A stretch of 64,000 nucleotides of DNA. It comes from Pseudofrankia sp. DC12 (GTDB lineage Bacteria > Actinomycetota > Actinomycetes > Frankiales > Frankiaceae). The first letter of the stretch is position 1. Each line of letters begins with the position of its first letter. Under the pieces are notes generated by a model that was given only the letters and a program-made list of their open reading frames with translations, did no database searches and was not told the origin of the DNA. Location of the stretch: assembly GCF_000966285.1 (NCBI RefSeq), contig NZ_KQ031391.1, forward strand, positions 3,860,540-3,924,539. The letters run 5' to 3'. The translations under genes were made by a program, and so were the position numbers. Positions 42,427 to 58,864 of this stretch are shown in pieces.

Positions 42427-43223
42427 CGGCCTGACCGCCCGCCCCCGGCCCTCGTGGGCCTTTGCTGGTGGGCACCCGATCTGTAGCCAAGCCTCGCTCC
42501 GTCGCCGAGGGCCCGCACCGCGACGTCGTGGCGGCTTCTGCTCGGCCCCGCGGGCTGTCCAGCCCGCGCCGCCACTGGTGATCTTTGATGGCTGGTCTCG
42601 CTGCGGCCGTGGAGACTCCGCCCGGACCCGCCGCGGCGGGTCCGCGACCCCTCCCGAGGAAGCCTTTTCGGGCTGGCCCTTACGTGACGGAACCCTTTTT
42701 GGCGATCAGGGCCCCGGCCGCGTTCCATTCGGGTTCGGCCGGCGTGCACGTGCATCCACGCCGTGCAGAACGCCCGTGCATTCTCCGCGTGCATTGAGCG
42801 GAGGCGTTTCCTGCATCATGCAGATTGTGTACGTGCGGGTTACGCCTCGGTTGGCGACCTGCACGTGATTCGGTTTTGTCACATCGCGGTGGCGGACGGC
42901 CGCTGAAATCTCACATGTATACGGAGTGGTAATTCCGGTATCCCTGCCCGATTCGTCCGGCTGTGTTAGCGGCGACCCGGCGCGTAGCCGGACCGGCGTG
43001 ACCGCGGCTGGCGCTCCCGGGCCGGCATCGTGGCGCCTGCGTGCCGTTATGTCGCCCTCGACAGGCAGGCCCCGGTTGCCCGGGGAAACCAGCGGAGACG
43101 GGGCCCATCGGGACCGCGTTCGCGGCGTTGGGCTCCGATCCGCGCAGGGGTGCCCGTGCGGCGGCCGGAACTCGTTCTGGGACGATAGGGAGCAATCAAC
43201 TCGCGGACCGCAGGGAAGGCGCT
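42427..43223. other. Gene-poor region with a cluster of GTGCA motifs
   Basis: 797 bp between the split regulator and the PAS-EAL gene, without a supported gene. GTGCACGTGCAT (42744-42755) is followed by GTGCAG (42763), GTGCAT (42776 and 42789) and the palindrome CTGCAT-C-ATGCAG (42811-42823), which looks like a multi-site operator. Confidence 0.5.
42744..42823. promoter_or_regulatory. Cluster of GTGCA-type motifs
   Basis: Five GTGCA/CTGCAT-type sites in 80 bp, two of them palindromic. The 12-bp first site is nearly identical to the palindrome at 38767. The cluster sits 400 bp upstream of the PAS-EAL start. Confidence 0.4.
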
Positions 43224-45353
43224 GTGGACGACCCGATCGCCGATCGTTGGTATGAGGCGGTGACCGTGGTGTCGGCACGCGCGGGCGTGTCGCCGTCGGC
43301 GCCGGCCGCGCGGATGACCCCGCCCGGCGCGCCGACCCCTGAGGCAACGCGGAAGAGCCGGCCCGTTCCGGGACCGGCTGGTTCGGCGACCGTTGAGCCG
43401 ACCAGCGTCGCCGTGATTTCCGACGGTGCCCCCGGGGCCTCGGCCGTCCCGGACATGTGCGCGGTTCTCAGCGGGTCCGGCCAGCCGGACTCGCCGGCCC
43501 AGGTCGAGACGTTCGCCTGTTCAGCCCCGGCGGCACCCGCAATCGGATTCGGACCCCCGGACGGATTCGCCGCGGCCGGCGCGGCGATGCGGGCCGAGCT
43601 GCGAGAGCTCACCGGTCAGCTGTTTCGCGCGATCGCGGCCGACCCGGCCGACCCGGGGACCGGTCGAGCGGTTGGCGCGCGGCTGGTCCGGATCGGGTTC
43701 GCCGAGCCGGACGCGCTGGCCCGCAGCGTCGACATCCTCGGCCCTGCCCTGGCCGCCGCTGCCGGCGCCGGGCGCGCGACCGCCGTCTACGCTCTCCTGG
43801 GCGCCGTGGCCGCTGGCCACGGCGACGCCCTGCGCAAGCGGGACCTGGCCGTCGCCGCGGAGAAGCAGCGCGCCGAACTCGCCGCCCTGCGCAGCGCGCA
43901 GCGGGCCCGCCGGGACGGTGCGGCCCAGTTCCGTGCCGCCTTCGACCACGCCGGCATCGGGGCCCTGGTGGTGGCCGACTGCGGCGAGATCGTGGAGGTC
44001 AACGACACCGCCAGCCAGATCGTCGGCCGAGACCTCGCGCACCTGTCCATCGGCGACGTCTGGGACCTGGTCCACTCACGCGACCGGGCCGAGCTGATCG
44101 ACATGTGGGCCGCCGTGCGGGCCGGCCGCTCGGGGCACGGCGTCTGGCGGCTTGACCGGCCGGCCGGTCCCGACGGCGGCCCGGTGTGGGTGGCGCTGAC
44201 GGCGACCATGGTCGAGGACGACGCGGCCAGAGTGTGCTTCGCCGTCACGATCGAGGACGTGACCTACCGGCCCGACCCGCGGTACACGCCTGAGCGCGGC
44301 GGGCCGGCCGCTCCCGCTGCAGGCCTCACGCCCACGGCCGGCACGGACAGCGCGCTGGGCCGGCAGGTCGACGCGACCCGGGTGTCCGAGTCGGACCAGG
44401 CGGCGGCCGCCGCGCGGATGACCCGGGGGATCGCGGCCGCGCTGCGGGACGGCCAGTTCGTCGTGCACTACCAGCCGATCGTGCGCCTGCTCGACGGGCG
44501 GATCCAGGGCGCCGAGGCGCTCGTCCGCTGGAACCATCCGCGGCTCGGGATGCGCCGGCCGGAGGAGTTCATCGGTGCCGCCGAGGAGTCCGGCCTGATC
44601 GTCCCGCTCGGTCTGCACGTGCTGGAGACGGCCTGCCAGGACGCGGCCCGGTGGGCGAACGTGGCTGCGACCGCCCCCGCGCTAGGCGACGACGAGCCGC
44701 CGGTCCGCCCGTTCGTCAGCGTCAACCTCTCGGTGCGCCAGCTGGAGGAGCCGGACACCGTACCGGTCATCCTGCGGATCGTCGAGCGGGCTGGGATCGA
44801 GCCCGGCCGGCTGCAGCTCGAGCTGGTCGAGAGCCTGATGCTCGACACGGTCGGCCGTCCGCTGGAGGCGCTGCGCGCCCTCGCCGCCGCGGGCATCCGG
44901 ATCGCCATCGACGACTTCGGCACCGGCTACTCGAACTTCGCCTACCTGCCGACGCTGCCAGTCCGTGCGCTCAAGCTCGCGGGGCAGTTCGCCGGCCAGG
45001 TCGACGATGACGCCGACGGTCCGGACGGCGACCCGGGTGGCCTGCTGTCGGCGGTGGCTCTCGATCACATGGTCGAGGGCATCGTCCTGATCGCCCATCG
45101 GCTCGGCCACACGGTGACCGTCGAGGGTGTCGAGACGCGCGAGCAGGCGGCGCGGATGCTGGCACACGGCGCCGACTTCGGTCAGGGCCACCTGTTCGGC
45201 CATCCTGTCTGTGCCGACAAGCTCGCTGCCGTCTTCGCCGGCGAACCGGCGAACGTCGGCGGGACGCATGGGCCGCGCCTGGCCGCCATGCCGGTTCCGT
45301 CGGCGCGGGACCATCGGCTGCACGACCACGCGGCCCCCCACCGATGGGTCTGA
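43224..45353 (+). CDS. PAS-EAL cyclic-di-GMP phosphodiesterase
   Basis: A 709-residue cytosolic protein. Residues about 125-235 form an N-terminal helical domain seen in actinobacterial PAS-EAL proteins. A PAS fold lies at about 235-355 (FDHAGIGALVVADCGEIVEV). The EAL domain lies at about 400-680 with GAEALVRWNHPRLG, NLSVRQLEE, LELVES, the metal-binding pair in IDDFGTGYSNFAYL, catalytic Lys in ALKLAGQF, TVEGVET and GQGHLFGHP. The residues for hydrolysis of cyclic di-GMP are present, and no GGDEF domain precedes it, so a phosphodiesterase is expected. GTG 43224 follows GGGAAGG. A weak hairpin follows the stop. Confidence 0.88.
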   Translation: MDDPIADRWYEAVTVVSARAGVSPSAPAARMTPPGAPTPEATRKSRPVPGPAGSATVEPTSVAVISDGAPGASAVPDMCAVLSGSGQPDSPAQVETFACSAPAAPAIGFGPPDGFAAAGAAMRAELRELTGQLFRAIAADPADPGTGRAVGARLVRIGFAEPDALARSVDILGPALAAAAGAGRATAVYALLGAVAAGHGDALRKRDLAVAAEKQRAELAALRSAQRARRDGAAQFRAAFDHAGIGALVVADCGEIVEVNDTASQIVGRDLAHLSIGDVWDLVHSRDRAELIDMWAAVRAGRSGHGVWRLDRPAGPDGGPVWVALTATMVEDDAARVCFAVTIEDVTYRPDPRYTPERGGPAAPAAGLTPTAGTDSALGRQVDATRVSESDQAAAAARMTRGIAAALRDGQFVVHYQPIVRLLDGRIQGAEALVRWNHPRLGMRRPEEFIGAAEESGLIVPLGLHVLETACQDAARWANVAATAPALGDDEPPVRPFVSVNLSVRQLEEPDTVPVILRIVERAGIEPGRLQLELVESLMLDTVGRPLEALRALAAAGIRIAIDDFGTGYSNFAYLPTLPVRALKLAGQFAGQVDDDADGPDGDPGGLLSAVALDHMVEGIVLIAHRLGHTVTVEGVETREQAARMLAHGADFGQGHLFGHPVCADKLAAVFAGEPANVGGTHGPRLAAMPVPSARDHRLHDHAAPHRWV

Positions 45354-51102: not shown

Positions 51103-51858
51103 CTAGCCGAACAGCGCTCCGTGGGTCTGCGGTCCGACGACACCGTCGGCCGGAAGGCCATGGCTGGCCTGGTAGGCGCGCACGACCCCGTCGGTCTGCG
51201 GGCCGAAGTAGCCGTCGACCGCGATCGTGTAGCCGAGGCCGGACAGCTTCGCCTGCAGCTGTCGGACCGCGTCCAGGTAGGAGCTGTGGTTCGCCGCCTG
51301 CGACAGGTACCAGGCGCTTGCCGGCACGGCGGGGGCCACCTTGGCCAGGGATACCGGTGCGGCCGAGACGGTTCCGCTGCCGACCGCGTTCGCGGCGGCG
51401 TAGCCACGTGACAGGTAGGAGCGGTACGCGCCGTTCGTGTAGGTGCTCCAGGCGCCCGGGCCGGAGCCCTTGCAGACCTGGGTCGCGGCCCAGGCGTTGG
51501 TCGCCGGGTCGTAGAGGTTGCGGCTGCCGACCCAGCTGCTGTGGGCCCACATGTTGATCTGCCAGAGGCCGCGGGAGTCCTCGATGCCGGTGGCGTGGGC
51601 GTAGGTGTTACCGCCGGACTCGGCGAGCGCGATCGCGACCCAGGTCGAGAGCGCGACACCGCGGCAGCTGTCGAGGCCGGCGCCGTGCGCGTAGGCGGCG
51701 ATCTGCGCGTCGGAGATGATGCTGCTGCTGGCTGCGCTGGCGGGAGCGACGCCGGTGAAGATGGCGGCGCCGGCTGTGGCACTCATGACACCTGCGGCGA
51801 CAATCGCGGAACCGCGGCGACGAGCATTGGACTTCTTGCGGTGACGGCCCTTGAGCAT
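51103..51858 (-). CDS. Secreted lysozyme-like protein with a peptidoglycan-binding domain
   Basis: A 251-residue secreted wall enzyme. A signal peptide of about 42 residues (ending GVAPASA) is followed by a lysozyme-like domain. ALSTWVAIALAESGGNTYAH contains the probable catalytic Glu80, and DSRGLWQINMWAHSSW resembles soluble transglycosylases and phage lysozymes. After a linker, a C-terminal PG_binding_1 domain (about 190-251: LQAKLSGLGYTIAVDGYFGP, GVVGPQTHGALFG) anchors it to the wall. It is expressed behind a cyclic-di-AMP riboswitch, the classic arrangement for actinobacterial wall-remodelling enzymes. ATG 51858 starts a plausible signal peptide. Confidence 0.9.
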   Translation of the reverse strand: MLKGRHRKKSNARRRGSAIVAAGVMSATAGAAIFTGVAPASAASSSIISDAQIAAYAHGAGLDSCRGVALSTWVAIALAESGGNTYAHATGIEDSRGLWQINMWAHSSWVGSRNLYDPATNAWAATQVCKGSGPGAWSTYTNGAYRSYLSRGYAAANAVGSGTVSAAPVSLAKVAPAVPASAWYLSQAANHSSYLDAVRQLQAKLSGLGYTIAVDGYFGPQTDGVVRAYQASHGLPADGVVGPQTHGALFG

Positions 51859-51877
51859 TCTGGAAGAATCTTTCCCG

Positions 51878-52028
51878 CACGCCTGTGGAGTTAGCTGTCG
51901 GGTTCGGGCCGGGAAGCCCGGTCAGCCATTCTTCCGATGACGCTCGGGAAATGGCTGGCTTAACCCCAAGGGCACGCGCTAGGCGCGGTCCCGGAGGAAC
52001 CTGGTTCCCCCACTTCTGCCCTGGCGAT
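51878..52028 (-). promoter_or_regulatory. Cyclic-di-AMP (ydaO/yuaA) riboswitch
   Basis: On the minus strand the leader of the lysozyme-like gene carries the conserved ydaO parts in order: GGGGGAACCA (52011-52002), TTGGGGTTAA (51969-51960) and GAACCCGACAGCTAAC (51905-51890), with AGGCG closing the P1 region (51884-51880). CGCC at 52026-52023 can pair with that GGCG. The aptamer ends about 20 bases before the ATG, so control could act on translation initiation or on a short terminator. The class binds c-di-AMP and controls wall hydrolases in actinobacteria. Confidence 0.93.
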
Positions 52029-52546
52029 CTCTAGGAGGGGGCACCGGAACGGGGGCAGAACTCGGCGTCCGAAACGGTGCTTTGTTGCGAGCGGAGCAAC
52101 CGTAACCAACTACTCGACGTACCAACAAGCCGCTGACCTGGGCTTCTGTACGGCGGATCTGTCACGCTCCGTGCAATACCTTGGAGCCAGGTGTGTGCCA
52201 GCTGTGAGCTGTGACGAGGGTCACGGTGTTCTGCGCGAAAATGCGGGAACAGGGGGCTGTTGTTCTGCAAACCGTTGTCGCGCAATGGCTCCAGGCGGCC
52301 GCGATGGACAGGGAGGTCTTTCGCCGGCGCGGCCGGCCTGGTGCTGGGCGTGAGGTAGGCGCTCGTTACGCTCCGGTTGCTCAACCCTCGGTGGCGGCCG
52401 TTTGCGTCCCGTCGTGAGCGTGGTGGCCGCCACGTTGCGCGGCGATCACCGCCGAGGGGCCGACTTTTGGACGGTGTCCCTTTGCCGCGTGTCCGGAAGG
52501 GCGGGCGCACGCGCGGTGCACGCGAACCGATGATTGCGACGGATTC
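52029..52546. other. Region upstream of the riboswitch
   Basis: About 520 bp with no supported gene. It should carry the promoter of the riboswitch-controlled gene. The segment 52080-52140 is less GC-rich. No clear boxes were assigned. Confidence 0.5.
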
Positions 52547-52936
52547 TTGAACGTGCCCTATGGTGCGGTGGCGGGGGTCGTCTTCTCGCTGGTGGTGAAT
52601 CAGTCGACCGTGGTCCACGACCTCACCGTCGCCCAGGTCCGCCCCGGCGCGATCGGCTACGCCGAACGCGGGGCGGCGGCCACCTACGCGAAGGTCAACG
52701 AGGTCAGGCTCGGCGGCTGGGTGGCGGACCTGAGCACCGTCGAACGCGGCGACTACGCGTTCTGGGAGGTCGAGTACTTCTACACGTATGGCAACCCGGC
52801 CGGGGACAGCCTGCTGTCGGCCTTCCTCGAGTACACGACTCTCGACTCGGCGAAGAACCTGCTTCGCGCTGGCAGCTTCACTCGGTGCATCGACCACGCC
52901 AGGAACCTGATGACCACGCTGTGCGCCCAGCACTGA
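52547..52936 (+). pseudogene. C-terminal remnant of a PstS-like substrate-binding protein
   Basis: The frame encodes about 129 residues with the late signature of phosphate-type binding proteins: VRPGAIGYAERGAAATYAKV, VRLGGWVADL and the YAFWEVEYFYTYG segment that matches the family's YPFWxxEYLYTYG region, then a helical tail. There is no signal peptide, no N-terminal lobe and no clean start (TTG 52547 or GTG 52553). It therefore looks like the 3' end of a gene whose front was lost. It converges on kdpE with a 13-bp gap. It might be a degraded solute-binding component once linked to the same membrane cluster. Confidence 0.6.
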
Positions 52937-52949
52937 CTGGATCCCTCGA

Positions 52950-53729
52950 TCAGGGCTGGAAGCGGTAGCCCATGCCCGGATCAGTGAGCAGGTGCCGGGG
53001 ACGGGCCGGGTCCTCCTCTAGCTTCTGCCGAAGGCGGTTCAGGTAGGTGCGCAGGTAGTGGGTCTCGGAACCGTAGTTGGCGCCCCAGACTTCGGTGAGC
53101 AGTTGGCGTTGGGAGACGAGCTTGCCCGGGTGGCTGAGGAGAACCTTGAGCAGGCCCCACTCGGTCTTCGTCAGATGGATCTCCTCCACTGACTCATTGG
53201 CGAAATCGTCCCCCTGGCCGTCTGCTGCCGCGCTGCCTGGTGGTTCGCCGTCGGTTGGCGCTGTCTTGCCGTTGGGGCTGGATACCGGCGCGGCTGCCCG
53301 TGTGACACGGTGGGCGGACAGATCGACGGTCACGCGGCCGAACTGGACGATGGGGCTCGCCGACTGCTCGCCGGTGCGGCGAGCGACCGCGCGCAGCCGC
53401 GCGAGCAGCTCGTCGATGCCGAACGGCTTGGTGATGTAGTCGTCGGCTCCGGCGTCCAGGGCGCCGACCTTGTCCCGACTGTCCGCGCGGCCCGACAGCA
53501 CGACGATCGGCACCCGTGTCCAGCCACGCAGGCCGTGGATCACGTCGACGCCGTCCAGGTCGGGCAGGCCGAGATCGAGGATCACGATGTCGGGACGGGT
53601 CGCGGCGGCGGCGGCGAGCGCGGTGGCGCCGGTATCCGCGACGACCACGTCGTAGCCGCGTGCACGCAGATTGATCCGCATCGCCCGCAGGATCTGCGGC
53701 TCGTCGTCGACGATCAGAACCCGAGTCAT
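52950..53729 (-). CDS. kdpE: KdpE response regulator with a linker insert
   Basis: A 259-residue OmpR-type regulator. The receiver has Asp8-Asp9, phosphoacceptor Asp52 in VILDLGLPDLDG and Lys101 in YITKPFGID. The DNA-binding wing is complete (LVSQRQLLTEVWGANYGSET, HYLRTYLNRLRQKLEEDP and GYRFQP). Between strands of the OmpR domain sits an insert of about 35 residues (VSSPNGKTAPTDGEPPG... to DDFANE) absent from typical KdpE. It overlaps kdpD by 4 bp (ATGA), and its partner kinase is that gene. KdpE normally activates kdpFABC, which is not in view. Confidence 0.93.
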   Translation of the reverse strand: MTRVLIVDDEPQILRAMRINLRARGYDVVVADTGATALAAAAATRPDIVILDLGLPDLDGVDVIHGLRGWTRVPIVVLSGRADSRDKVGALDAGADDYITKPFGIDELLARLRAVARRTGEQSASPIVQFGRVTVDLSAHRVTRAAAPVSSPNGKTAPTDGEPPGSAAADGQGDDFANESVEEIHLTKTEWGLLKVLLSHPGKLVSQRQLLTEVWGANYGSETHYLRTYLNRLRQKLEEDPARPRHLLTDPGMGYRFQP

Positions 53730-56443
53730 CGCGGCCTTTCCGACGTCGTCATCTCGCCGGTTCCGCCGTTGTCGGCCGGAAGCTCGACGACCATCGTGAG
53801 GCCTCCTCCGGGGGTGTCCTCGGGGGTGAGGGTCCCGCCCATCGCCTCGGTGAGGCCGCGGGAGAGCGCGAGCCCGAGGCCGGTGCCGACCGTGTTGTCG
53901 CGGTCGCCGAGCCGCTGGAACGGCTGGAAGATCGCGTCGCGGTCCGTCTTGGGTACCCCGGGGCCGCGGTCGACGACGCGGATCTGCACCCGGTCACCGA
54001 GCGTGCTTGCGCTGACGAGCGGCGGCGACCCCGTCGGGGAGAAGCGAATCGCATTGGCGACCACGTTCGCGATCACGCGCTCCAGGAGGACCGGATCGGC
54101 GCGCATCGCCGGAACCTCCGGGTCCGCGCTGACCTGGATGCGCACTCCGGTCGCGTCCGGCCCCAGACAGTCAAGTGCGAGCGCCACGACGTCCTCGACG
54201 TGGACCGCCCGTGGAAATACGGACAACACCCCGGCCTGAAGACGACTCATGTCGAGCAGGTTCTCGACCAGCGTCGTGAGCCGGTCGAGTGACTCGTCGG
54301 CGGTAGCGACCAGTTCGGCCCGTTCTTCCGGTGACCACACCACATCCTCGGCCCGCAGGCCGGTGACAGCCGCCTTGGCCGCGGCCAACGGGGTACGCAG
54401 GTCGTGGCTGACCGCGGCCAGCAAGGCGGAACGGACCCGGTCCGCCTCGGCGAGTGGCTTCACGGAGGCGGCCTCCTGGGCCAGCCGGAGCCGTTCGGCG
54501 GCAGTCGCCGCCTGCGCGGCGAACCCGGCGAGAAGCCGACGGTCCGCCGCGGGCAGCGGCCGGCCGCGTAGAACCAGCGTGAACCGGCCGGCCGGCACCT
54601 CGACGTCGCCGTCAGAGGGGTGTTCGGATGGTTTCGGACCGACGTTGGCCACGACCTCCCACCGGTCCCGGCCTGGGCCGGGTGGCGGGCTCGGGACCCC
54701 GCCACCAGCGGTGCCGCCAGAGGTCCCGTTACCAGAGACGTCGCCGCCGGAGCTGGCTGTAAGCAGAGTTACCGACGTCATCCCGAACCCCTCACGGACC
54801 CGTTCGAGGATCGCCGGCAGTGGATGCTCGCTGCGCAGGACGGTGCCGGCGAGCGTCGCGAGGGCCTCCGCTTCGGCGCTGGCCCGGGCGGCCTGCACCG
54901 AACGGCGCCGGGCGAGGTCGACGACCCGGCTTACGGCGATGGCGACCGCGACGAACGCCGCGAGCGCGAACGCGTTGTTGCGGTCGTCGATCGTCCAGGT
55001 GTGCAGCGGCGGGGTGAAGTAGAAGTTCAACAGCAACGAGGCGGCGACCGCGGTCGCCAGCGCCGGCCAGATGCCGCCGACGAACGCCGCCACGACGACA
55101 ACCAGCAGGTAGAGCAGGGTGTCCGAGGTCAGGTTGACCTCCGTGCGGCCCGAGGCCGCCAACACGGTGAGCAGCGCCAGAGCGGCGCCGGCGAGGGCGA
55201 ACCCGGCGAGCTGCCGGCCAGCCGCCAGTGTCAGCGACGACGCGCGCCCTCGGCCGCGCCCAGCGCCGAACACCCAACTCGCACCCGTTTTCGGGACGTC
55301 CTCGGCTGATGGGCGCGATGGTCGTCCGCCGGCGCTGGACTCCTCGTGGGTGACGAGATGCACGTCGATCGAGCCGGAACGGGCGGTCGTCGTGACGCCG
55401 ACGCCCCGGCTGACCAGCTGCGCGAACCGGCCACGCCGGCTCGCGCCCAGCACCAGCTGGGTGGCGTTCTCGGCCCGGGCGAAGTCCAGCAGCGCCTTCG
55501 GGACGTTGTCGCCGAGGACCAGGTGGTAGCTGCCGCCGAGGCTCTCCACGAGCGTGCGCTGCCGGGCCAGCGCCGCCGGGTCCGCACCGGTGACCAGGCC
55601 GTCCGGCCGGCTGACGTGCACGGCGAGCAGGTCGCTGCCTCCGGTGGAGCGGGCCGCGATCCGGGCCGCCCGGCGGATCAGCGTGTCGCCCTCCGGCCCG
55701 CCCGTGATCGCGACGACGACCCGCTCGCGGGCCTCCCACGTGTCGGTGATGCCATGGTCGACCCGGTAGCGGTCGAGCTGGTCCTCGACCTTGCCGGCGA
55801 CCCAGAGCAGCGCCAGCTCACGCAGCGCAGTCAGGTTGCCGACCCGGAAGTAGTTGGCCAGCGCGGCGTCGACCTTGTCGGCCGCGTACACGTTTCCGTG
55901 CGCCATCCTGCGGCGCAGTGCCTCCGGGGCCATGTCGACGAGCTCTACCTGGTCGGCGGCCCGGACGACCGCGTCGGGGATGGTCTCCCGCTGCGGCACC
56001 CCGGTGATCGTGCTGACGACGTCGTTGAGCGACTCCAGGTGCTGGATGTTCAGTGTCGTCACGACATCGATGCCGGCGGCGAGCAGCTCCTCGACGTCCT
56101 GCCATCGCTTGGGGTTGCGGGAACCGGGGACGTTCGAGTGCGCGTACTCGTCGACGAGCGCGAGGGCGGGCTTGCGGTTGAGTACAGCGTCGACGTCCAT
56201 CTCCGTGAACCGGGCGCCGCGATGCGAGAAGGTCCGCCGCGGGACGATCTCGAACTCGCCGATCATCTCGGCGGTGAGGTGGCGGCCGTGCGTCTCGACC
56301 AGGCCGATCACGGTGTCGGTGCCGCGTCCGGCCCGGCGATGACCCTCGGAGAGCATCGCGTAGGTCTTGCCGACGCCGGGGGCGGCGCCCAGGTAGATCC
56401 GCAGCCGGCCTCGCCGCGGCACGTCGACGGCGTCGGAGGTCAT
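53726..56443 (-). CDS. kdpD: KdpD potassium/osmo-sensing histidine kinase
   Basis: A 905-residue kinase with the full KdpD layout. The N-terminal KdpD domain has Walker A GAAPGVGKT (19-27) and GLVETHGRHLTAEMIGEFEI. A universal-stress-protein-like domain follows (about 245-370: ERVVVAITGGPEGDTLIRRA), then four transmembrane segments (about 410-505) and a GAF-like region. The HisKA helix has His680 in AAVSHDLRTPLAAAKAAV. The ATPase domain has NVVANAIRFSPTG, VVDRGPGVPK and GTGLGLALSRGL. KdpD senses low potassium or osmotic stress and phosphorylates KdpE. The USP-like domain is where c-di-AMP binds in some relatives, but the defining motif is not recognisable here. Confidence 0.95.
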   Translation of the reverse strand: MTSDAVDVPRRGRLRIYLGAAPGVGKTYAMLSEGHRRAGRGTDTVIGLVETHGRHLTAEMIGEFEIVPRRTFSHRGARFTEMDVDAVLNRKPALALVDEYAHSNVPGSRNPKRWQDVEELLAAGIDVVTTLNIQHLESLNDVVSTITGVPQRETIPDAVVRAADQVELVDMAPEALRRRMAHGNVYAADKVDAALANYFRVGNLTALRELALLWVAGKVEDQLDRYRVDHGITDTWEARERVVVAITGGPEGDTLIRRAARIAARSTGGSDLLAVHVSRPDGLVTGADPAALARQRTLVESLGGSYHLVLGDNVPKALLDFARAENATQLVLGASRRGRFAQLVSRGVGVTTTARSGSIDVHLVTHEESSAGGRPSRPSAEDVPKTGASWVFGAGRGRGRASSLTLAAGRQLAGFALAGAALALLTVLAASGRTEVNLTSDTLLYLLVVVVAAFVGGIWPALATAVAASLLLNFYFTPPLHTWTIDDRNNAFALAAFVAVAIAVSRVVDLARRRSVQAARASAEAEALATLAGTVLRSEHPLPAILERVREGFGMTSVTLLTASSGGDVSGNGTSGGTAGGGVPSPPPGPGRDRWEVVANVGPKPSEHPSDGDVEVPAGRFTLVLRGRPLPAADRRLLAGFAAQAATAAERLRLAQEAASVKPLAEADRVRSALLAAVSHDLRTPLAAAKAAVTGLRAEDVVWSPEERAELVATADESLDRLTTLVENLLDMSRLQAGVLSVFPRAVHVEDVVALALDCLGPDATGVRIQVSADPEVPAMRADPVLLERVIANVVANAIRFSPTGSPPLVSASTLGDRVQIRVVDRGPGVPKTDRDAIFQPFQRLGDRDNTVGTGLGLALSRGLTEAMGGTLTPEDTPGGGLTMVVELPADNGGTGEMTTSERPR

Positions 56444-56575: not shown

Positions 56576-58864
56576 TCAGCCGACGTGGACGGCGGGGCGG
56601 CGGGAACGATCGGGCTCGGCCTCGCGGAGCACCTCGCGGGTGATCGGGGCGACCTCACCGACGCCGAAGATCAGGAACCGGATCAGGTTCGTGAACGGGT
56701 TCCCTTCCGTCCACTCGAAGTAGATGTGCGGATGGGTGCCGGTGATGTCCCGTACGTAGAGCAGGAGCGCGGCGATCGCGTTGGGCACCGAGGTGCTGGT
56801 CAGGCGCAGGACGCGATAGCCGTGCTGGTCGAGGCCGGCGACGTCGAGGGCACACTCGAACTCGGACGCGTCGGTGATCGCCACCTCGACGAACAGCAGC
56901 GGGTCTCCGGCCGGGATGTGCGCGTCCCGCCGGATCTGCGCCTCCTTGCCGCGGTACTCCGCCGCCTCGCCGGTGTCGGGCTCGTTGGCCACCAGTCGCA
57001 GGTCGACGGGCTCCCCGTCCCCTATGCCACCGCGCCGACTAGCTGCCGCCACGTCGGCGATGAACTGCGTTGCGGCTAGATCGGCGCGGACTTCGGTGAC
57101 CCGCAGCTCGAACGCCCGGACCGCCCGGGAGATGAACGAGACAGCGACGATCACGATGATGAAGATCGACGCAATGATCAGACCGTCCGGCCGCTCGAAG
57201 ACGTTGGCGATCGTCGTGTAGATGAAAACGGCCGTGATCAGGCCGAACGTGACGAGCCGTTTGGTCGAGCGTCGCCCGTCGGCCTTGCGGCGCATTCCGG
57301 ACAGCGTCACCGCGAGCGAGGCCGAAGTGATCAGGACGAGCACGCCGGTCGCGTAGGCGCCGCCCTGCTTGTCCACACTCGCGTCGAAGACCCAGGTGAT
57401 CAGGAAGCCGATGCCGACGAAGACGAGGACGAGCGGGCGAACCGCCCTGGTCCACCGGGGAGCCATGCCGTACCTGGGTAGGTAGCGAGGGACGAGGTTG
57501 AGCAGCCCGGCCATCGCCGAGGCGCCCGCGAACCAGAGGATCGTGATGGTGCTGACGTCATAGGCGGTGCCGAACGCCTTACCGAGCAACTCGTGGGCTA
57601 GGTACGCCAGCGCGCGCCCGTTGGCAGGCCCTCCGCTCTGGAAGTCCTGCTCCGGGATCAGCCAGACCGTCACCAGGCTGCTGGCCAGCAGGAAGCAGCT
57701 CATGATCACGGCAGCCGTCGTGAGCAGGCGCCGGGCGCCCCGGATACGGCCGTGAGGGTGCGCTTCGGTGTCGGTCGCATCGCCCCGGATCAGCGGCATG
57801 ACGGCGACGCCGGTCTCGAAGCCGGACATGCCGAGCGCGAGCTTGGGGAACACGATCAGCGCGAACCCAACCAGCAGGAACGGATTGGGATGTTCGGCAA
57901 CCAGAAGTCGATGCCAGTCGTTGATGACGTGCGGTTCGCCCACGACCTTCGTGAATGCGGCGACCATCACCACTGCGTTCAACGACAGGTACACGACCAC
58001 CAGCACGACGGCGAGGCCGACAGCCTCGGTGAAGCCGCGCAGGAACACCGCTCCCAGCAGCGCCAGCAGGAGCAGTGTGATCAGCATCGACTCGCCGTGC
58101 AGCACGGCCGGCGTGTACGGATTCTCGACGATGTGCGCCGATGCGTCCGCGGCCGACAGGGTCATCGTGATGACGAAGTCGGTGGCGGCGAACCCAAGCA
58201 GCGCGAGCACAAGCAGTTTGCCGGCCCACCAGGGCAGGAAATGCTCGAGCATCGCGATCGAGCCCTCGCCGTGCGGGCTCTCGTGCGCCACCCGCCGGTA
58301 GACCGGTAGCGCGCCGACCAGGGTCAGCACGATCAGGACGAGCGTCGCCACCGGGCTGACCGCGCCGGCGGCGAGGACCGCGATGCCCGGTTGGTAGCCC
58401 AGCGTCGAGAAGTAGTCGACCCCGGTCAGGCACATGACCCGCCACCACCGGTGCATCCGGTGTGCCTCGGCCGGCGCCTGGGTGTGCGGGCCGGCGTGCC
58501 ACTGCGACTGCTCCGCCAGGCCCTGGAGCAGCCAGGCCCGGAGGCCGTGTCGGTAGCGACCGTTTCTGCTCGGTCCGACGGGCCCGCTCGGCTGGTGGCG
58601 CCGTTCCGGGGGTGGCGCGGGCCGCGGCACGTCGGTTGTTTCGATCGAGCCGACGCGGCCGTCGGCTGGCTGAGGCTGTCCGGGTGCGTCAGATGATGCC
58701 GGACCACCCAGCTCACCATTGCAGTCCGGGAACAGGGGCGTCCCGTCTACGTTGTGCTGTCCGGGTCCGACCGAGTACGGATTACCGTTCACCGGAATCT
58801 TCCCGCCAGCGGACCCATGCTCGTCCGACCAGCTCGGCATACCCGCCTGCGTGCCGGTAGGCAT
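56576..58864 (-). CDS. APC-superfamily permease with a cytosolic C-terminal domain
   Basis: A 762-residue transporter. A disordered N-terminal region of about 140 residues precedes about 12 transmembrane segments (roughly 145-575), opening with [21 protein letters not shown] soluble C-terminal domain of about 160 residues follows ([36 protein letters not shown]). The architecture resembles APC-type permeases, some of which carry potassium in other bacteria; a named KimA signature is not evident. Placed just upstream of kdpD on the same strand (133-bp gap), potassium or amino-acid import is the reasonable guess. ATG 58864 is the longest start. Confidence 0.8.

Follow-up and report, generated by a model that had tools for sequence, protein, structure and literature searches.

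In Streptomyces, six or seven genes for wall hydrolases carry ydaO-like elements, and for rpfA of S. coelicolor premature transcription termination by c-di-AMP has been reported (PMC10117811). For nlpC of C. glutamicum, whose switch has no terminator, control at translation has been reported, and pairing of a CTCC stretch with the GGAG of the ribosome-binding site (RBS) was suggested by the authors (PMC9960051). The published mode of action of actinobacterial c-di-AMP switches is thus split between termination (rpfA, PMC10117811) and translation (nlpC, PMC9960051). In a wider context, a review places ydaO among the riboswitches in which the expression platform is the docking site of the aptamer (PMC10907184). 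The existence of a ydaO pseudoknot is stated in PMC5393176, and in the ydaO sequence printed there the loop ACUCCUUCG is, from a reading of the letters, complementary to the tail CGAAGGAG just 3' of P1.

The window analysed here, a stretch of 64 kb, holds an element that shares much with these systems. Like ydaO/yuaA (RF00379), it gives a covariance match over the whole model, with the conserved core and with complementarity between a loop and the tail. As with rpfA and the other ydaO-controlled hydrolases of Streptomyces, the aptamer stands before a wall hydrolase and is one of several in its genome (PMC10117811); as with C. glutamicum nlpC, for which translational control has been reported, the gene is an actinobacterial wall gene and no terminator is present (PMC9960051). 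There are also differences. Transcription termination is reported for rpfA (PMC10117811). The target in the window is an SLT_3/PG_binding_1 hydrolase with UUCCCG as the presumed partner loop, compared to CTCC/GGAG for nlpC (PMC9960051). Moreover, the window element has a long hairpin at the P1/P2 junction (Px), the loop of which is complementary to a strand further upstream, whereas in ydaO, as we read the sequence printed in PMC5393176, P1 leads almost directly to P2 without Px. In interdomain-docking riboswitches such as cobalamin and preQ1-III, the RBS is hidden when a loop of the aptamer docks on a strand downstream, as we propose for the window; the docking section of PMC10907184 contains no actinobacterial example and, for ydaO, no helix of the type called A/A' below. 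The features of the locus, in window coordinates, are as follows.

52069..52080, minus strand: strand A, GCACCGUUUCGG, the 5' side of the candidate extra helix (complementary to A'; covariation over loci)
52064..52068, minus strand: P1 5' strand, ACGCC (pairs with GGCGU, 51883-51879)
52053..52061, minus strand: 5' strand of Px, the P1/P2-junction hairpin, GUUCUGCCC (from comparison with relatives)
52041..52052, minus strand: strand A', CCGUUCCGGUGC, immediately 3' of the Px 5' strand (complementary to A)
52013..52021, minus strand: Px 3' strand, GGGCAGAAG (from comparison with relatives)
51865..52036, minus strand: RF00379 match according to Rfam (5' edge inside the Px loop; P1 5' strand and A excluded)
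51906..51919, minus strand: hairpin GGGC-UUCCCG-GCCC (loop 51915-51910 complementary to the tail, UUCCCG/CGGGAA)
51890..51905, minus strand: conserved core, GAACCCGACAGCUAAC (Rfam match and motif)
51879..51884, minus strand: P1 3' strand, AGGCGU (Rfam match)
51870..51877, minus strand: CGGGAAAG, putative pseudoknot tail strand and presumed Shine-Dalgarno sequence (from complementarity)
51103..51858, minus strand: secreted hydrolase of 251 aa (SLT_3 at 65-139, PG_binding_1 at 196-249)
52950..53729, minus strand: KdpE-like response regulator, context (domain match)
53726..56443, minus strand: KdpD-like sensor kinase that carries a Usp domain, context (domain match)

Judged from its sequence, the element is a c-di-AMP riboswitch of the ydaO/yuaA family (RF00379), of the actinobacterial kind, and is predicted to bind c-di-AMP. 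A sequence-only reading of the window had called it ydaO/yuaA and named a covariance search as the check. That search bore the call out clearly, with an RF00379 match at 51865-52036 on the minus strand that scores 55.1 bits, where 38 is the cut-off (E 4.9e-10 when both strands of the 64 kb are searched with 4227 Rfam families), and is the sole gathering-level Rfam match in the window. The conserved segments follow each other in the order claimed, with GGGGGAACCA at 52011-52002, TTGGGGTTAA at 51969-51960 and GAACCCGACAGCTAAC at 51905-51890 on the minus strand, and the gap of about 20 bases to the ATG was read correctly as well, since 20 nt separate the end of the P1 3' strand (51879) from the ATG (from 51858). 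The extent of 51103-52028 given at the time had the right site, but it came without a strand and was too short on the 5' side: comparison with relatives places the 5' start of the element at approximately 52080, with strand A outside the Rfam match. When the loci are read further upstream, the P1 5' strand is ACGCC (52068-52064) and not the AUCGCC used by the Rfam alignment. It pairs with GGCGU (51883-51879) to form the closing helix, agrees with the Rfam consensus cGCcgAA and with the motif in relatives, and P1 is also formed in the free MFE fold of the leader. Free folding showed no excess stability of the leader over shuffles (z -0.76) and was dropped as proof of structure. Six RF00379 matches, the window element among them, are present in the genome (6.88 Mb, one contig), along with one match to the diadenylate cyclase (DAC) domain, so that synthesis of the ligand is encoded. 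Two of the six elements lie approximately 1.3 kb apart (L006, G000:C1:3090709-3090894, and L001, 3092212-3092386), each with a hydrolase-like gene directly behind it, giving what look like two c-di-AMP-controlled wall genes in a row.

The protein encoded behind the element was earlier described as lysozyme-like and peptidoglycan-binding, and this holds: both SLT_3 (E 5.4e-15) and PG_binding_1 (E 8.8e-19) exceed the Pfam cut-offs. Its N-terminal signal ends in ASA, as judged by eye. E80 and the GLWQIN motif are invariant in all 7 aligned orthologs, and we take E80, by eye and from knowledge of the family, to be the catalytic glutamate. The named orthologs belong to Frankia/Pseudofrankia, the one in Frankia sp. 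AgB1.9 being 93% identical, so the window probably comes from this group. Two adjacent SLT_3 paralogs (G000:C1:6329249-6331139) lie away from all six RF00379 matches in the genome.

The pairing of aptamer and gene is well conserved. Eight genomes of the genus have 5 to 6 RF00379 matches each, and in all eight the best hydrolase ortholog stands directly behind one of them. A match is also found upstream of 7 of the 8 named orthologs; for the eighth (L125), the match starts 668 nt from the contig end, and an NlpC/P60 piece occupies that space. In a sample of the class, 91 of 118 genomes have an RF00379 match at E <= 0.001. The combination of riboswitch and hydrolase is a further member of the published actinobacterial type, making the headline of the earlier reading correct and ordinary. 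The interest of the locus lies beyond it, in the integrated architecture of aptamer and translation start, the candidate 5' pseudoknot and the apparent change of target gene.

To describe the expression platform, we collected 188 actinobacterial RF00379 loci (32 + 56 + 100, the last being mostly the best-scoring among the matches listed). Of these, 24 lacked the anchor motif and 3 were duplicates, so that 161 distinct loci were kept. An open frame begins 6 to 45 nt after P1 (median 20) in 156 of the 161, and a terminator would find hardly any space there, if any. The Shine-Dalgarno score is -4 or lower in 147 of the 161 loci, and frames at shifted control positions gave 3/75, 3/144, 8/161, 10/159 and 15/157. 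Pairing to the anti-Shine-Dalgarno sequence at the 16S 3' end, the tail of which (CACCTCCTTTCT) is present three times in the genome, peaks at the bases immediately 3' of P1. The window locus, with 20 to 21 nt from P1 to the start, has a Shine-Dalgarno score of -3.8, short of the -4 cut, and is outside the 147. No terminator-like site was found in 51700-53000. An RBS next to or inside the aptamer combined with the lack of a terminator is the arrangement expected of a translational OFF riboswitch, and the short gap between P1 and the start fits such control, with the loop-tail pseudoknot covering the RBS. Free folding, in a model that ignores pseudoknots and ribosome binding, gives CGGGA an unpaired probability of 0.02-0.23, in part due to pairing with a downstream UUCC; as CGGGA stays mostly paired, exposure of the RBS without ligand is not predicted by that model.

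Domains were sought in 130 of the 156 downstream proteins, after 26 apparent near-copies had been left out by hand; many proteins from shorter stretches are partial (approximately 195 aa). With one protein able to match several domains, the counts are NLPC_P60 40, Transglycosylas 32, PG_binding_1 19, SLT 17, Peptidase_M23 7, SLT_3 7 and CHAP 6, besides others.

Complementarity between the loop and the tail extends beyond the window. In 119 loci, the pairing of a loop with its own tail averages 5.19, compared to 4.64 for permuted partners (sd 0.067, maximum 4.86 of 2000). For the window, UUCCCG (51915-51910) is complementary by hand to CGGGAA within CGGGAAAG (51877-51870), while the automatic parse, in which a longer stem was chosen, gives 4 bp. 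Of the 92 loci (of 119) with a pairing of at least 4.5, 56 have a tail strand that overlaps the core of the Shine-Dalgarno sequence; at others it lies just before the core.

A second long-range complementarity involves strand A, just 5' of P1, and strand A', at the start of the junction-hairpin loop. In the window, A and A' can form 6+3 bp, interrupted by a 3x3 internal loop (-16.1 kcal/mol), and the locus does not belong to the 67 that have a strong contiguous helix. A genome of the same genus (G007, locus L009) has a perfect helix of 12 bp. Duplex energy was rejected as the sole test of A/A', since, at -18.3 for own pairs and -12.8 for swapped ones, the own partner ranks in the top 5% at only 30 of 69 loci, and we therefore used position-restricted and unguided tests. 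Over 54 loci, the contiguous helix measures 5.81 for own pairs and 3.39 for permuted ones (sd 0.16, maximum 4.06 of 2000), and it reaches 6 in 24 of the 54 own pairs compared to 5.6% of swapped pairs. An unguided scan of fixed offsets in 60 loci picked out registers 13 and 12, which place A on A' (z 7.4 and 6.1), the next register having a z of 1.9. Covariation between A and A', calculated ungapped from 47 sequences, is 0.366 (0.429 one column on) and was reached by none of 500 shuffles (0.215 +/- 0.024); other slides gave 0.104-0.241. A measure of pairs that change on both sides did not discriminate and was reached by 475 of the 500 shuffles. No two of the six copies in the genome share an A sequence, and every A has a complementary A' (duplexes of -16.1 to -24.9 kcal/mol).

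The positions of the two strands are narrowly set: in 50 of the 67 strong loci the Px 5' strand is followed by A' at a distance of 0 to 1 nt, and in 56 of the 67 A ends 1 to 3 nt before CGCC. Their order and spacing fit a coaxial H-type pseudoknot that has the P1 5' strand in its first loop and would coexist with Px and P1. The junction hairpin was parsed in 148 of the 161 loci, with 117 loops of at least 12 and 31 shorter ones; the latter have no room for A', pointing to at least two architectures. We found no description of the A/A' helix in the literature searched, which did not extend to the primary structure papers, and for RF00379 the CaCoFold analysis, in the part of PMC7657543 consulted, gives only a helix extension and no new pseudoknot.

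We think it likely that the riboswitch acts on translation of the SLT_3 hydrolase, being OFF at high c-di-AMP, with ligand binding, polarity and level of action all read from the arrangement of the RNA. The aptamer would need no separate expression platform: P1 ends two bases before CGGGAAAG, which would have a double role as RBS and as partner of the aptamer hairpin loop UUCCCG. Bound c-di-AMP would stabilise P1 and the loop-tail pseudoknot, hiding the RBS, and at low c-di-AMP the RBS would be free and the hydrolase made. As an H-type pseudoknot that joins the region upstream of P1 to the interior of the junction hairpin, the A/A' helix would serve as a brace for P1. Transcription attenuation as the main mode, in which the ligand-bound fold halts RNA polymerase early as in S. 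coelicolor rpfA, draws on the rpfA result of St-Onge and Elliot (as cited in PMC10117811 and PMC9960051). However, with some 20 nt between P1 and the ATG, no U-rich terminator found, and transcript levels of C. glutamicum nlpC that do not respond (PMC9960051), attenuation appears improbable here. The class-wide position of the start, approximately 20 nt after P1, makes the translational reading the default, and a testable one. Decay or orphaning of the aptamer, with control of the hydrolase lost, is suggested by some relatives, where only a remnant of 22 to 28 codons stands behind the aptamer, but the core and the start codon at 20 nt are kept in all eight genus genomes, so we consider loss of control very unlikely.

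For A/A', the pseudoknot has to be weighed against a hairpin of the ligand-free state whose loop would enclose the 5' strands of P1 and Px and which would exclude the ligand-bound aptamer. The P1 5' strand does lie inside the A/A' loop, and both helices covary or are conserved, which would suit such a competitor. However, the tight placement of A' behind Px and of A before CGCC is needed by a coaxial pseudoknot and not by a competing hairpin, and many of the duplexes (down to -30.8 kcal/mol across loci) are too stable for a ligand to undo easily. We therefore regard competition as unlikely, though deserving serious attention. The palindrome-like layout close to the likely promoter region might also be that of an inverted repeat in the DNA, an operator for a regulator and not an RNA helix; an operator would keep one sequence, and the six different A sequences with matching partners in one genome argue for an RNA helix and make an operator exceedingly improbable.

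Extending the preferred reading, in which A/A' braces P1 and the loop-tail pairing covers the RBS, we tentatively propose, with slightly more doubt than conviction, that many actinobacterial c-di-AMP riboswitches clamp P1 between a 5' H-type pseudoknot and a loop-tail pseudoknot at or adjoining the RBS, such that aptamer and translation start form one unit that may pass between wall genes after gene loss. If true, constructs that start at the Rfam boundary miss part of the RNA, the 5' pseudoknot being absent from the Rfam model.

A possible instance of such a passage is seen among relatives of the window locus. In Candidatus Frankia meridionalis (L126), the same aptamer is followed by an NlpC/P60 gene and then by the SLT_3 gene, and this order is found in 3 of 8 further stretches (L271-L273), L272 being nearly identical to L126. 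Two of the 8 (L274 and L278) have the aptamer and SLT_3 with no NlpC/P60 match, two have NlpC/P60 without SLT_3 within the stretch, and one has neither. At two loci with aptamer and SLT_3 and without NlpC/P60 (L124 and L083), only a frame of 22 or 28 codons stands behind the RBS, and in the window and in L119-L123 it is the SLT_3 start codon itself that is directly behind it. The simplest reading is that the NlpC/P60 gene was probably lost and the switch taken over by the next hydrolase gene, the direction being read from this series, which makes it a candidate case of a riboswitch changing its target gene. Parafrankia sp. EUN1f also has a ZMP/ZTP riboswitch (RF01750) at 6416-6504 of L124, 2 kb upstream of the c-di-AMP riboswitch.

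The aptamer had further been placed within 2 kb of kdpDE. The proximity is real, kdpE being approximately 0.9 kb and kdpD approximately 1.6 kb away on the same strand, but wider linkage is weak and limited to a lineage. kdpD is 3.5 kb or less from the aptamer in 6 of the 8 genus genomes (of the other two, one has it at a distance of 14.7 kb and one on a different contig) and was found in the retrieved flanking sequence of just 3 of the 8 named hydrolase orthologs; a c-di-AMP/potassium module was rejected on these grounds. A c-di-AMP riboswitch together with potassium genes is also found in B. thuringiensis kdpFABC, where, however, the switch controls the K+ transporter (PMC6488665); in the window, kdpDE is a mere neighbour in part of one genus.

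The KdpD of the window (53726-56443, minus strand) has a Usp domain, and the genome contains two more KdpD-like genes, at 4.07 Mb. In Staphylococcus, the Usp domain of KdpD is a target of c-di-AMP. Upstream of kdpDE on the same strand, 56576-58864 (minus) encodes a polytopic membrane protein of 762 aa that is present in 7 of the 8 genus genomes. Its identification as a KimA-like importer was abandoned, as no Pfam, NCBIfam or PDB sequence match was obtained and the structure model, with a mean pLDDT of 36.2, was of no use. In the interval from the riboswitch to kdpE, a frame of 129 aa (52547-52936, plus strand) weakly matches the final part of PBP_like_2, short of the cut-off (E 0.0054), and similar sequence occurs in L119, L120 and L122; it resembles the end of a phosphate-binding-like protein and is possibly a remnant. 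Further away, a 770-aa frame at 43041-45353 (plus strand) is, by eye, sensor-like with an EAL (c-di-GMP phosphodiesterase) domain.
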